In this document: positions 2,719-10,215 of the stretch, piece after piece
Numbering within the stretch: position 1 is the stretch's first letter
Layout: every line of letters begins with the position of its first letter
Assembly: GCF_009762795.1 (NCBI RefSeq)
Contig: NZ_CP046400.1
Location: 2,891,501-2,955,500 of the forward strand
Origin: Pseudodesulfovibrio cashew
Lineage (GTDB): Bacteria > Desulfobacterota > Desulfovibrionia > Desulfovibrionales > Desulfovibrionaceae
Length of the DNA: 64,000 bases
Direction: 5' to 3'
The notes under the pieces: generated by a model
Databases searched by the model: none
Told to the model about the DNA's origin: nothing
Seen by the model: the letters and a program-made list of their open reading frames with translations, nothing else
Translations under genes and position numbers: made by a program

Positions 2719-6577
<3,859 letters not shown>

Positions 6578-8764
6578 ATGACGGTGAAGGATGGAAGTAT
6601 ATCTCAGGGACGGCGGTGCGTGCCCGGTGCGATAATCGCGAGCGGATTTTTCGCTGCCTTGGGCATGGCGCTTGTCTCCTTTACCCTGCCGTTGGCCAGC
6701 CTGGATGCGAGGGTGAGTGGCGCATGGCTCGGCACGGGGTTCGCCGGATTTTTTCTGGCACGGCTGCTGGCCGGTCCCCTGGGAGGCCTCTGGGCCGACA
6801 GTGGCGGGGCGCGCATGCCGCTTCTAGCTGGCGCGGCTATCGGGGCGCTTGCCCCGCTTGCGTATGTCGCGCACCCTTCGGTATCAGCTCTCTATTTTAT
6901 CCAATTCGTGCTGGGCGGTGTCTCAGGCCTGATTCGTCCCGTGGGCCTGGCCGTGCTTGGCGGCAGCGCCCCCTCCGGCTCGGAGGAAGGGTGGTTTGCC
7001 GCCCATGTGCTGGCGTTCAATGTCGCCCTGTTTACTGGCCCGCTTCTTGGCGGATTCCTCTATTGGAACAGGAGCATGGAGCCGGTGTTGGCCGGGGTGG
7101 TGGCTTGCATGGTCGTCGCTCATTTGTGCGTTTTCGCGGGAGTGCCAGCCTCGGTCCGTTCGAAGCGGACTTCTGTAGGCGCCGAAGATAATTCTCCGGT
7201 CCAGAGGGAGCTCGGAGTGCTGCTCCTGGCTGTGTTCGGGCGTTCTCTGGGACTCGGTCTTTTCATTGCCTTTTATCCCCTGTTGCTCACCATGCGGGCA
7301 GGCAAGGCGCCCTTGCTCGTTGCAGCCCTCTTCGCTTTGCCCAATCTGGTGGTCTGCGCAGGTCTGTTTCCCCTCCGTCGGTTAACCGCCCGGTATTCAG
7401 GCGTTGCCGTCACCGTAGGAGGGCTGACGCTCAGCAGCCTGGGCTTGTTTGGCGCAGGGATCGGCACTGATATTCCCGCATTTATTTTCAGTGGCGCAGT
7501 CATGGGGTTGGGCACCGCTCTTTCCATGCCCGCCTCCATGAATTTGATATCTCGAACTAGGCAGGGGCAGGGGCGGGTGTTCGGCGTGGCCCATGCGACC
7601 ACCGGCGTGGGGCTTGTCCTGGGGCCGTTGTTGGGTGGGCTGATTCTGACCTGGTCTGGCTCCTTCGGTCTTGCCTTTGAACTGGCGGCTTTGATCGGAG
7701 TTCTTTGCTGCGTGCCGTTGCTCTGGAGTAAAGGCGGTGGCGGAGTAAGCAAACTCGCGCGCTGGGCAAAAGGAGTCTTGGCGGTCCTGGCTGCGACTTT
7801 GCTGATAGTGGGCCTCGCCCGTGTGGACGCTGCCCTGAACGTAGTATCCATACCTGACGACGGGTTGTACCGCTTTACCGACATGGCCATGGGTACGGTG
7901 GTGCACCTGACCCTGGATGCGGACAGCCGGAAAGCTGCAGACGATGCCGCCCGCAAGGTCCTGGCATATATGCATGCGGCCCGGGCCGACCTGGATTTCC
8001 GTGACCCCGAGGGCTCTGTGGGGCGTATTAACCGGGGTGCGGGAAGCTATTACGTCGAGCCGAGTCGTCGGGCCTATTCCCTTATTCGTCGGGCCGTAGC
8101 CTTGAGCCGGGCCACGGGCGGCGTGTTTGATCCCACGGTTGGCGCACTGACTACGTCCCCTTTATATTATGTATTGGACGAAGCCATTGCCGAGTCAAAG
8201 AAGGGGTTGGTGGACTACCGCAAGGTCCTATTTGAGGAGGGGCGCTGGCGGGTCAAGCTTGAACGCAAGGGCATGGCGCTCGATCTCGGGGGCATCGCCA
8301 AAGGGGCCATCGTGGACGGGGCGGTGCGTCTGCTCAGGAGCGAGGGCGTGCGCGCGGGCATTGTGGAAGCGGGAGGCGATTTTTACTGCTTCGGGCCTCG
8401 GGACTGGACCGTCGGCATACGGCATCCCCGCGAAGACAAGGTGTTCGTAACGGTGACCGTGCGCGAGAAGGGCGTCTGCGGCTCGGGGGACTATCAGCAG
8501 TTCGTCAAGGTGGAGGAAGCGGACGGGATCAGCCTACGCCATCATATCATCGATCCGGAGGATATGGAGCCTGCCGACCGATCCGCCGGGGTGACGGTTA
8601 TTGCCGGAAGCGCCGAGCTGGCTGACGGTCTGGCAACGGCCCTGTTCATTACGGGGCCTGCCAGGGGGAAACTGCTTCTGGACAATACATACCCTGATGT
8701 GTCGGCCCTTTGGTTCTCTCGGGATTTAAAGGTTTCGGTCACGGATAATTTTCCGAAGAAATGA
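6578..8764 (+). CDS. MFS transporter fused to ApbE-type FAD:protein FMN transferase
   Basis: This 728-residue protein joins two complete modules. Residues 1 to about 390 form a major facilitator superfamily transporter, with hydrophobic helices starting near IIASGFFAALGMALVSF and a DRR-like basic loop replaced by GLWADSGGARMP. A thirteenth membrane segment, GVLAVLAATLLIVGLA (about 398-414), then places the chain outside the cytoplasm. Residues from about 430 to the end form an ApbE domain with the family signatures DLGGIAKGAIVDGA (near 569), EAGGDFYCFG (near 597) and HHIIDPED (near 655). ApbE attaches FMN from FAD to Thr/Ser of periplasmic electron-transfer proteins. The ATG at 6578 is chosen over an in-frame ATG at 6524 because GAGGAT lies six bases upstream. 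The transported substrate is unknown; a flavin is an inference from the fusion. Confidence 0.88.
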   Translation: MTVKDGSISQGRRCVPGAIIASGFFAALGMALVSFTLPLASLDARVSGAWLGTGFAGFFLARLLAGPLGGLWADSGGARMPLLAGAAIGALAPLAYVAHPSVSALYFIQFVLGGVSGLIRPVGLAVLGGSAPSGSEEGWFAAHVLAFNVALFTGPLLGGFLYWNRSMEPVLAGVVACMVVAHLCVFAGVPASVRSKRTSVGAEDNSPVQRELGVLLLAVFGRSLGLGLFIAFYPLLLTMRAGKAPLLVAALFALPNLVVCAGLFPLRRLTARYSGVAVTVGGLTLSSLGLFGAGIGTDIPAFIFSGAVMGLGTALSMPASMNLISRTRQGQGRVFGVAHATTGVGLVLGPLLGGLILTWSGSFGLAFELAALIGVLCCVPLLWSKGGGGVSKLARWAKGVLAVLAATLLIVGLARVDAALNVVSIPDDGLYRFTDMAMGTVVHLTLDADSRKAADDAARKVLAYMHAARADLDFRDPEGSVGRINRGAGSYYVEPSRRAYSLIRRAVALSRATGGVFDPTVGALTTSPLYYVLDEAIAESKKGLVDYRKVLFEEGRWRVKLERKGMALDLGGIAKGAIVDGAVRLLRSEGVRAGIVEAGGDFYCFGPRDWTVGIRHPREDKVFVTVTVREKGVCGSGDYQQFVKVEEADGISLRHHIIDPEDMEPADRSAGVTVIAGSAELADGLATALFITGPARGKLLLDNTYPDVSALWFSRDLKVSVTDNFPKK

Positions 8765-8832: not shown

Positions 8833-10215
8833 TTATTTTTCTACTTCATATCCGGCCCGGCTCCAGGCGAGGAAACCGCCCGCCAGGGCGCGGACGTTCC
8901 AGAATCCGTGCCGTTGCAGGTAGGAGGCCGCGATGTTGGAGCGGTAGCCCGACGCGCAGTAGAGGATGTGGTGGTCATCCTCGGAGAGGTCGAACTTGCC
9001 GTCGAGAATGTCGGCCAGTGGGAACTTCACGGCTCCGGGGATGACGCCTCCTGCGGTCTCACCCGGTGTGCGCACGTCGATTAGGCTGACGGGCTTGTTC
9101 TCGGCCTGGCAGTTCTGGAGGTCCTGGGCGGAGTCGATGGACAGTTTCTCCACGGGACGGCCGCTGTAGACCCACGACTGGATGCCGCCGGTCAGGTAGC
9201 CGAAGATGTTGTCGTATCCGATACGATGGAGTTCGATACACATGCGATCGTAGTCTTCCTTGGACTCGACCACCAGCAGGAGGTCCGCCTTGGGGTCCAC
9301 GACCATGCCCACCCAGTTGGCCAGGCTGGGTTCGAACCCGATGTTGATGGAACCGGGGATGTGGTATCCGGCAAAGGCGGCGGCGTCGCGTACGTCGATG
9401 ACTGCGGCTCCGTCGAGCATCCGTTCCTCAAAACGCGCAGGCTCCATGGCTCTGTCCAGAGGGCAGCGCTCCAGCAGGGGCGCACCGCCCGCGTTGGTGG
9501 AGATGATGTGCGTGAAGGATTTGGGGCGTGCCGGGAAATTCTGGCTCATGGCCAGGTGGAACGACTCGTAAGAATCGAAACCGAGCATGGGATTGTGGCG
9601 GCGCTCGAACCCGAGGGTGGAGCTGGGCTTGGAACTCATGCCACGCCCGCAGAGGGAGCCCGCACCGTGGGCCGGAAAGACCTCCAGGCTGTCGGGATAT
9701 TTCTGGAATTTGATGTAGAGCGTGTTGTAGAGGTTGTCGATCTGCTCATCGAGCTTGGCGTCACCCACCAAGTCGGGCCGTCCGATGTCGCCTACGAACA
9801 GCACGTCGCCGGTGAGGATCATCCACGGCTCGTCGCCGCGGGTGAAATCCGTGACCAGCAGGGAGAGGGCGTCGGGCGTGTGGCCGGGCGTGTGCAGGAC
9901 CTCAAGTCCGGCGTTGCCCACCACCAGTTTTTGGCCTTCCTTGAGGGGAGTGAAGTCATAGCTTACCGGCGAGGTCTCGTAGACCATGATGTCGCATCCG
10001 GTCAGTGATTTGAGTTCGTGTGTGCCGGAAACGTGGTCCGCGTGGACGTGGGTATCGATAACATGGGTGATTTTCATGCCTTCTTCACGAGAGATATCCA
10101 GGTAGTCCTGTACGTCCCGCTTGGGGTCGACGACAACCATTTCGCGTGCGGCCGGACAGCCGATGACGTAGGAAAAGCAGCCGAGGCCGGGAGTGGTGAT
10201 CTGCTTGAAATACAT
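8833..10215 (-). CDS. MBL-fold hydrolase with two rhodanese domains (persulfide dioxygenase-like)
   Basis: This 460-residue soluble protein has an N-terminal metallo-beta-lactamase domain with the metal motif HVHADH at 56-61. Further ligands are HTPGHT near 110 and TGDVLFVGDIGRPD near 140. It resembles ETHE1-type persulfide dioxygenases, which oxidise glutathione persulfide to sulfite. Two rhodanese domains follow. The first (about 265-355) has no catalytic cysteine loop. The second (about 375-460) has the loop CASGYRS and should carry a persulfide. The protein probably handles sulfane sulfur in this sulfur-metabolising lineage, although the oxygenase reaction itself is unproven in an anaerobe. 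AAGGAG precedes the ATG. A sigma-70 promoter lies upstream. Confidence 0.88.
   Translation of the reverse strand: MYFKQITTPGLGCFSYVIGCPAAREMVVVDPKRDVQDYLDISREEGMKITHVIDTHVHADHVSGTHELKSLTGCDIMVYETSPVSYDFTPLKEGQKLVVGNAGLEVLHTPGHTPDALSLLVTDFTRGDEPWMILTGDVLFVGDIGRPDLVGDAKLDEQIDNLYNTLYIKFQKYPDSLEVFPAHGAGSLCGRGMSSKPSSTLGFERRHNPMLGFDSYESFHLAMSQNFPARPKSFTHIISTNAGGAPLLERCPLDRAMEPARFEERMLDGAAVIDVRDAAAFAGYHIPGSINIGFEPSLANWVGMVVDPKADLLLVVESKEDYDRMCIELHRIGYDNIFGYLTGGIQSWVYSGRPVEKLSIDSAQDLQNCQAENKPVSLIDVRTPGETAGGVIPGAVKFPLADILDGKFDLSEDDHHILYCASGYRSNIAASYLQRHGFWNVRALAGGFLAWSRAGYEVEK

Follow-up and report, generated by a model that had tools for sequence, protein, structure and literature searches.

What does a major facilitator superfamily (MFS) transporter carry when it is made in one chain with the flavin transferase ApbE? 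The question is raised by a gene in a 64,000-nt stretch of the Pseudodesulfovibrio cashew genome (contig NZ_CP046400.1, positions 2,891,501 to 2,955,500; the whole stretch is called the window, and coordinates count from its first letter). From the ATG at 6578 to the stop codon at 8762-8764 the frame runs for 728 codons with no internal stop. A TTG at 6524 is likewise open as an alternative start; the ATG has GAGGA upstream and agrees with the N-termini of homologues. Pfam placed MFS_1 on the product in two stretches (E = 9.6e-25; 87.7 bits vs. a cut-off of 33.4) and ApbE (PF02424) at residues 438-711, spanning positions 1-265 of the 266 in the domain model (E = 1.3e-58; 199 bits vs. a cut-off of 25.6). 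An earlier note on this DNA had described an MFS transporter, a thirteenth membrane helix and a full ApbE domain with all three signature motifs in one frame, and the 728-aa frame, Pfam, a structure model and conservation bear this out. We propose that the MFS half probably exports flavin adenine dinucleotide (FAD) to the fused periplasmic ApbE domain, which would in turn flavinylate RnfG and RnfD. We infer FAD as the cargo, the outward direction of transport and a local hand-over to ApbE.

Unfused relatives of the transporter half at nqr clusters

The nearest unfused relatives of the MFS half are 14 genes that scored above 250 bits in the search of class genomes, where other MFS-only matches stayed below 130 bits. 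All 14 have both an FMN_bind gene of the NqrC type and a solo apbE within ~9 kb. At one of these loci (L109) nqrABCDEF were all typed by NCBIfam; the other 13 nqr-linked loci were assigned by hidden Markov model matches and, for three, also by matching N-terminal sequences. Five more distant MFS genes had neither FMN_bind nor apbE nearby (0/5). Among the dozen or so MFS genes of the P. cashew genome, BLAST linked just one other to the fusion, namely the nqr-linked MFS (35% identity). The same transporter group thus meets ApbE twice over, by fusion and by gene clustering, and this double association is the best argument we have for a flavinylation-related cargo. The earlier note had derived a flavin substrate from the fusion only; to that the linkage of the unfused paralogue now adds, while FAD itself is still inferred.

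A tree placed the fused and nqr-linked MFS proteins apart from 14 other MFS proteins with a support of 84 in the Shimodaira-Hasegawa-like approximate likelihood ratio test (SH-aLRT), a moderate value over long branches. That tree omits L162 (probably read in the wrong frame) and L168 (a duplicate); with both included, and against 16 others, the SH-aLRT value was 99. The argument is carried by the linkage counts and not by tree support. The trees disagree on whether the fusion arose once: one needs two label changes and two need one (SH-aLRT 94 and 86), with long branches.

Predicted topology and structure

We built an AlphaFold2 model of the fusion on a 34-row homologue alignment. The mean predicted local distance difference score was 83.6 and the predicted template modeling score was 0.61, at which the mutual placement of the MFS and ApbE halves is uncertain. 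The model has 13 long membrane-type helices, the thirteenth at residues 392-424, followed by an ApbE fold. Hydropathy analysis gave 13 segments up to residue 418 that match the model helices and an extra one at 673-691 that belongs to the ApbE fold. The enrichment of lysine and arginine on the predicted inner side in 34/34 homologues argues for an N-terminus inside and an ApbE domain outside. From the 13 helices and the positive-inside pattern the ApbE domain is predicted to be extracytosolic, and as a prediction the earlier proposal that the thirteenth helix puts ApbE outside holds. A cytoplasmic ApbE domain was rejected on the same predicted topology (model helices, hydropathy, and the bias in charged residues). 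A Foldseek search with the model returned FmnB, Treponema pallidum Ftp and other ApbEs, and also NorA, LmrP and other MFS proteins; the ApbE half matched the FmnB/Ftp fold with template modeling scores of 0.83-0.85 when normalised by the target.

Residues of the ApbE half

The C-terminal half is assigned as an ApbE by domain, fold and triad, and FMN (flavin mononucleotide) transferase activity is predicted for it on these grounds. The Ser-His-Asp triad, described for ApbE in PMC12052999 (papers are cited here for the excerpts of their text that were available), is intact throughout the fused and solo alignment rows (Table 1). The isoalloxazine-contact position 475 is different: R occupies it in 51 of the 53 fused rows and H in the other two, whereas F, Y or W is found in 34 of the 37 solo rows. 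By alignment and PMC4767422 the equivalent position is Tyr60 in the Escherichia coli enzyme and Asn in that of T. pallidum. Mutation of Tyr60 turned E. coli Ftp into a non-retaining FAD pyrophosphatase with protein flavinylation kept (PMC4767422). A weaker grip on FAD through Arg475 may be tolerable in an enzyme that is fed locally. Against the NCBIfam PRK10461 ApbE equivalog (NF007774) the fusion scored 53.6 bits, below the cut-off of 498; at 268 bits, the solo ApbE that this genome has at its nqr cluster falls short as well. The fusion has no lipoprotein or signal-peptide N-terminus, and the MFS domain and helix 13 stand in that place; a lipoprotein start is typical of ApbE and not strictly defining, because cytosolic and fused ApbEs are known.

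Distribution and conservation

Both domains were found in one stop-free frame in 34 of the 36 genus genomes sampled (G000-G035, that of P. cashew included). The fusion is missing in G031 and in G008 (82% complete), and in G026 the contig ends within the copy. The fusion was found in 0/24 order-level relatives. Among 297 class genomes the fusion was found in 18 more, from three other genera of the family, and among 395 phylum genomes in one outside the family. The class search scored at most three first-look candidates per genome and the phylum search at most two, so the negatives of both are weaker. This spread within the genus and beyond it indicates that the domain pairing is selected. A pattern-limited scan of named records listed relatives in Pseudodesulfovibrio, Salidesulfovibrio, Desulfobulbus and metagenome-assembled genomes labelled 'Deltaproteobacteria', which judging from their isolate names presumably come from the dolphin mouth; outside the phylum, the MFS group was looked for by this kind of scan. 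Viral spread of the fusion was rejected, as a pattern-limited scan of viral contigs turned up no relative.

Over 34 aligned rows the mean pairwise identity is 46.8% in the MFS half, 59.4% in the ApbE half and 19.9% in helix 13 with its linker (residues 389-427). Helix 13 is hydrophobic throughout, the best 19-residue hydropathy being at least 1.6 in 31/34 rows with a minimum of 1.56. A segment that drifts yet stays hydrophobic has the look of an adaptor that sets the topology; the MFS half, constrained beyond what anchoring would ask, seems to be a functional part of the protein. Alignment A1 omits the copy of G035, which is identical to another row over its last 200 residues, and one homologue row set omits second copies from the same genome and matches below 60 bits. 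One long-branched fusion (L114, in G127) has an MFS half that scored only 217 bits against the family model and may be changing its transport function.

Candidate acceptors and the gene inventory

FMN_bind proteins are encoded in 36/36 genus genomes. In 26 of these no ApbE besides the fusion was found, a set with eleven single-contig assemblies and three genomes that are less than 90% complete. The remaining genus members hold 11 solo ApbEs, 9 of them within ~4 kb of an FMN_bind gene. Of the 24 order-level relatives, 16 have FMN_bind proteins, with ApbE present in 16/16. In the 19 kb read at the rnf operon of P. cashew itself (L128; RnfD and RnfG typed) there is no apbE. In Desulfovibrio alaskensis the operon is rnfCDGEABF, and its apbE-like rnfF is cotranscribed (PMC4841214). 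Since the fusion is often the sole ApbE found and no apbE was seen at its own genome's rnf operon, the plain reading is that the fusion does the job of RnfF; Rnf would be the acceptor by elimination, as most genus genomes yielded no other ApbE. The exception fits this role: G031, which has neither the fusion nor an MFS match to it, encodes FMN_bind proteins and two solo ApbEs, one of them 3.6 kb from an rnfG-like gene. A solo ApbE of that genome (L060) was considered as a syntenic replacement of the fusion and rejected, as the neighbors differ bar one weak match (28.6% over 276 aa).

In G177 (L112) one strand carries a decahaem cytochrome gene, the genes of RnfC, D, G, E, A and B, and then the fusion, 485 bp after rnfB (Rnf names given by sequence likeness); by this order the fusion appears to occupy the rnfF/apbE slot of the D. 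alaskensis operon. At four other loci (L039, L099, L100, and L103) the fusion is preceded at a distance of 15-191 bp, on the same strand, by the gene of a double FMN_bind protein, which has a signal-like start as judged by eye. The motifs of these double FMN_bind proteins read, for example, DGIAKAS and DSVAKAT, with K, R or D at the canonical G. FMN-binding neighbors, which the earlier note had pointed to, were thus found linked in relatives, and the flanks of the window gene are of another kind (POR-like and rhodanese-like). The nearest RnfG-like FMN_bind gene is 13-15 kb from the fusion in 19 of 34 genomes, 43-52 kb in 8 and further in 3, and in 4/34 there is none on the contig of the fusion (G021 is represented by its first fusion copy only). 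Fusion and rnf operon are part of a chromosomal region that recurs among these genomes. Where the interval between them was read (L030, L032, L036, L037, and similar loci), it holds an operon for fumarate reductase/succinate dehydrogenase, a fumarase gene and the genes of a two-component system, namely a histidine kinase with a cache domain and a response regulator of the sigma-54 type; domains were typed on L030 and L032.

The published flavinylation motif has the form D-x-x-[ST]-G-A-[ST]. In the main RnfG of many congeners (L070, which is the G000 rnfG, and others) Q, A, T or N stands at the motif Asp, mostly with an Asp two residues upstream. A link between this loss and the presence of the fusion was rejected as not clean: L071, from a genome with no fusion, also lacks the Asp, and some RnfG proteins in fusion genomes have D and others E, N or Q.

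As for the immediate flanks of the window gene, the divergent neighbor is presumably a pyruvate:ferredoxin oxidoreductase-like (POR) protein, a homologue of which is near the fusion in 10/34 loci compared (window included), and the convergent neighbor is what we take to be a metallo-beta-lactamase plus rhodanese-like protein.

Proposed mechanism and residues of the transporter half

We propose that the fusion works as a one-chain flavinylation module. Its 12-helix MFS half would take FAD from the cytoplasm, where it is made, through the inner membrane, and helix 13 would bring the C-terminus to the periplasmic side. There the ApbE domain, with Mg2+ and FAD, would attach FMN to a Thr/Ser of RnfG and RnfD, releasing adenosine monophosphate (AMP). 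In other lineages the acceptor may be the double FMN-binding protein with the signal-like start. Genomic linkage to apbE and to flavinylated acceptors, as looked for in a dedicated FAD exporter, was found.

The N-terminal half is an MFS protein with 12 helices that fails both the motif-B and the acidic-pair tests of a DHA1/NorA-type drug pump. Position 109, with an invariant Gln, is what we take to be the motif B arginine site of DHA1 transporters. NorA is the nearest solved MFS by sequence (E = 1e-5, low identity), and NorA and LmrP are among the closest by fold. A pairwise alignment places I230 and A314 of the fusion at the positions of the NorA acids E222 and D307. The only acidic residues of the MFS half that passed the 85% filter are D43 and D74, both at helix ends, and with the NorA acids replaced a proton coupling of the NorA type is unlikely. 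The G154, P155 and G158 residues are invariant and presumably form an exporter-type motif. Basic residues in the cavity helices TM4 and TM7 (67/67; Table 1) would fit a negatively charged cargo, for example FAD; organophosphate MFS antiporters also have basic cavity residues and anionic cargo. The outgroup MFS rows used for comparison number five, of which four are close kin.

Several observations weigh against FAD export by this transporter. The tree support of 84 is moderate, the equivalent of Arg222 is present in 4/5 outgroup MFS proteins, and I230 and A314 in place of the NorA acids leave energy coupling unexplained. The window gene is alone on its strand between genes that are not FMN acceptors, and the rnfG of its genome is 52 kb away. 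At 18 solo ApbE loci outside the family, taken as best matches to the fused model (L136-L153), such an MFS was found within ~1.5 kb in 0/18. G031 has flavinylation genes but neither the fusion nor a match to its MFS half, which means that this MFS is not universally needed. An MFS-type FAD exporter was not found in the literature searched, and the gene linkage could be due to some other cargo.

Alternative explanations

The last point leads to an alternative that we consider unlikely but serious, namely that the MFS half carries a by-product or precursor, e.g., imports AMP, FMN or riboflavin for salvage, and that FAD comes from another exporter. AMP is both product and inhibitor of ApbE (PMC12052999), so clearing it would help; the linkage evidence fits any substrate of the ApbE reaction and not FAD alone; and another FAD route exists in G031, which has ApbE without this MFS. 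Yet the nearest solved relatives, such as NorA and LmrP, are multidrug exporters, the invariant G154-P155-G158 motif is presumably of the exporter type, and salvage would not require a fusion with ApbE.

It is also improbable, though not absurd, that an ordinary drug or metabolite exporter now serves only as a membrane anchor for ApbE, with FAD arriving by another route. Most characterised ApbEs are lipid-anchored, and the excerpted review leaves the need for membrane association unexplained (PMC12052999); the NorA-like character of the MFS half, at low identity, and the solo ApbEs with no linked MFS of this kind (0/18) also fit an anchor. Anchoring does not explain the unfused MFS near FMN_bind and apbE genes at 14/14 loci, nor why the MFS half, with its group-specific invariant residues, is far better conserved than helix 13. 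The nqr linkage and the conservation contrast make an anchor-only MFS unlikely.

An ApbE half acting mainly as a Mg-dependent FAD pyrophosphatase that supplies free FMN, and not as a flavinylator, is very improbable. It is suggested by Arg475 (R in 51/53 rows), which replaces the aromatic residue whose loss makes E. coli Ftp such a pyrophosphatase, but both Ftp types still flavinylate protein substrates (PMC4767422), and 26/36 genomes yielded no ApbE other than the fusion, although all 36 encode FMN_bind proteins. A chance fusion, frameshift or misassembly joining two unrelated genes hardly deserves credence: nothing was found in its favor, and it is excluded by the conservation of the fusion across 34/36 genus genomes and further genera and families.

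Beyond FAD export by the P. cashew protein we offer, as a speculation that we rate as doubtful, a new MFS family of FAD exporters for periplasmic flavinylation in Desulfobacterota, either fused or separate at nqr-apbE clusters, in which the fused form would swap FAD for inhibitory AMP and so couple delivery to product removal.

Table 1. Features of the MFS-ApbE gene and its neighbors in window coordinates.
Feature	Position	Strand	Basis or conservation
MFS-ApbE fusion gene	6578..8764	+	728 aa plus stop; single frame, Pfam domains, homologues
MFS domain, residues 12-388, helices TM1-TM12	6611..7741	+	Pfam, alignment, model, hydropathy
Gln109, TM4	6902..6904	+	67/67 fused and nqr-linked MFS; Arg in 5/5 outgroup rows
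Arg120, TM4	6935..6937	+	R or K in 67/67 fused and nqr-linked MFS; T or V in 5/5 outgroup rows
Arg222, TM7	7241..7243	+	67/67; not diagnostic
13th membrane helix, residues 392-424	7751..7849	+	AlphaFold2 model, hydropathy, identity by region
ApbE domain, residues 428-728	7859..8761	+	Pfam, alignment, fold match
Arg475, isoalloxazine-contact ('switch') position	8000..8002	+	Alignment with ApbEs
Ser636, ApbE triad	8483..8485	+	Invariant: 53/53 fused, 37/37 solo rows
His656, ApbE triad, general base position	8543..8545	+	Invariant: 53/53 fused, 37/37 solo rows
Asp683, ApbE triad	8624..8626	+	Invariant: 53/53 fused, 37/37 solo rows
Divergent neighbor	2719..6228	-	Open reading frame, context only
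Convergent neighbor	8833..10215	-	Open reading frame, context only
TM, transmembrane helix.

Comparison with known systems

A 2025 review describes as 'still obscure' how FAD gets to ApbE, and puts the share of sequenced bacterial genomes with genes for ApbE targets at about half (PMC12052999). The excerpted text of this review names an ApbE-acceptor fusion and no transporter fusion, and 'MFS' is absent from the available main text of the flavinylation surveys PMC8238504 and PMC11334425. In the literature searched, where coverage of subscription journals is incomplete, an MFS-ApbE fusion is undescribed. A transporter-transferase fusion that is the sole ApbE found in many genomes offers a concrete candidate for a FAD exporter in Gram-negative anaerobes. 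As a single gene it can be approached by point mutations. The nqr-linked paralogue, which is unfused, offers another and separable candidate for this role.

On the transporter side, NorA and LmrP are among the nearest solved MFS proteins, yet the NorA acids E222 and D307 are replaced by I230 and A314, and the fusion has Gln109 and a basic residue at position 120. The Gram-negative flavin exporter of Shewanella, Bfe, is a MATE protein; it would share flavin export in a Gram-negative organism with the fusion and belongs to a different transporter family.

On the enzyme side, the fusion shares the full domain, the fold, the triad and the links to Rnf/Nqr acceptors with the ApbE/Ftp transferases (FmnB, T. 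pallidum Ftp, Vibrio cholerae ApbE, and D. alaskensis RnfF). Known ApbEs are mostly lipoproteins, with some cytosolic or fused to an acceptor (PMC12052999), whereas here the domain sits on a 13-helix transporter and has Arg for the aromatic contact. In the trypanosomatid ApbE-fumarate reductase, ApbE is in one chain with the acceptor enzyme (PMC12052999); here the partner is a transporter. The position of RnfF, whose apbE-type gene ends the rnf operon, is matched by the fusion in G177, while the window gene stands alone with rnfG 52 kb away.

A functional parallel is found in Listeria, where FmnA/EetB and FmnB form a system in which a dedicated FAD exporter feeds an extracytosolic ApbE (PMC9973259), the job that we propose for the fusion. 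The energy-coupling factor (ECF) exporter colocalises with apbE and is contrasted in the same paper with the Gram-negative flavin exporter, and eetB colocalises with rnf in Clostridia (PMC9973259). The Listeria exporter is of the ECF type with ATPase subunits, encoded by separate genes in Firmicutes (PMC9973259), whereas the candidate described here is an MFS protein, fused to its transferase, in Desulfobacterota.

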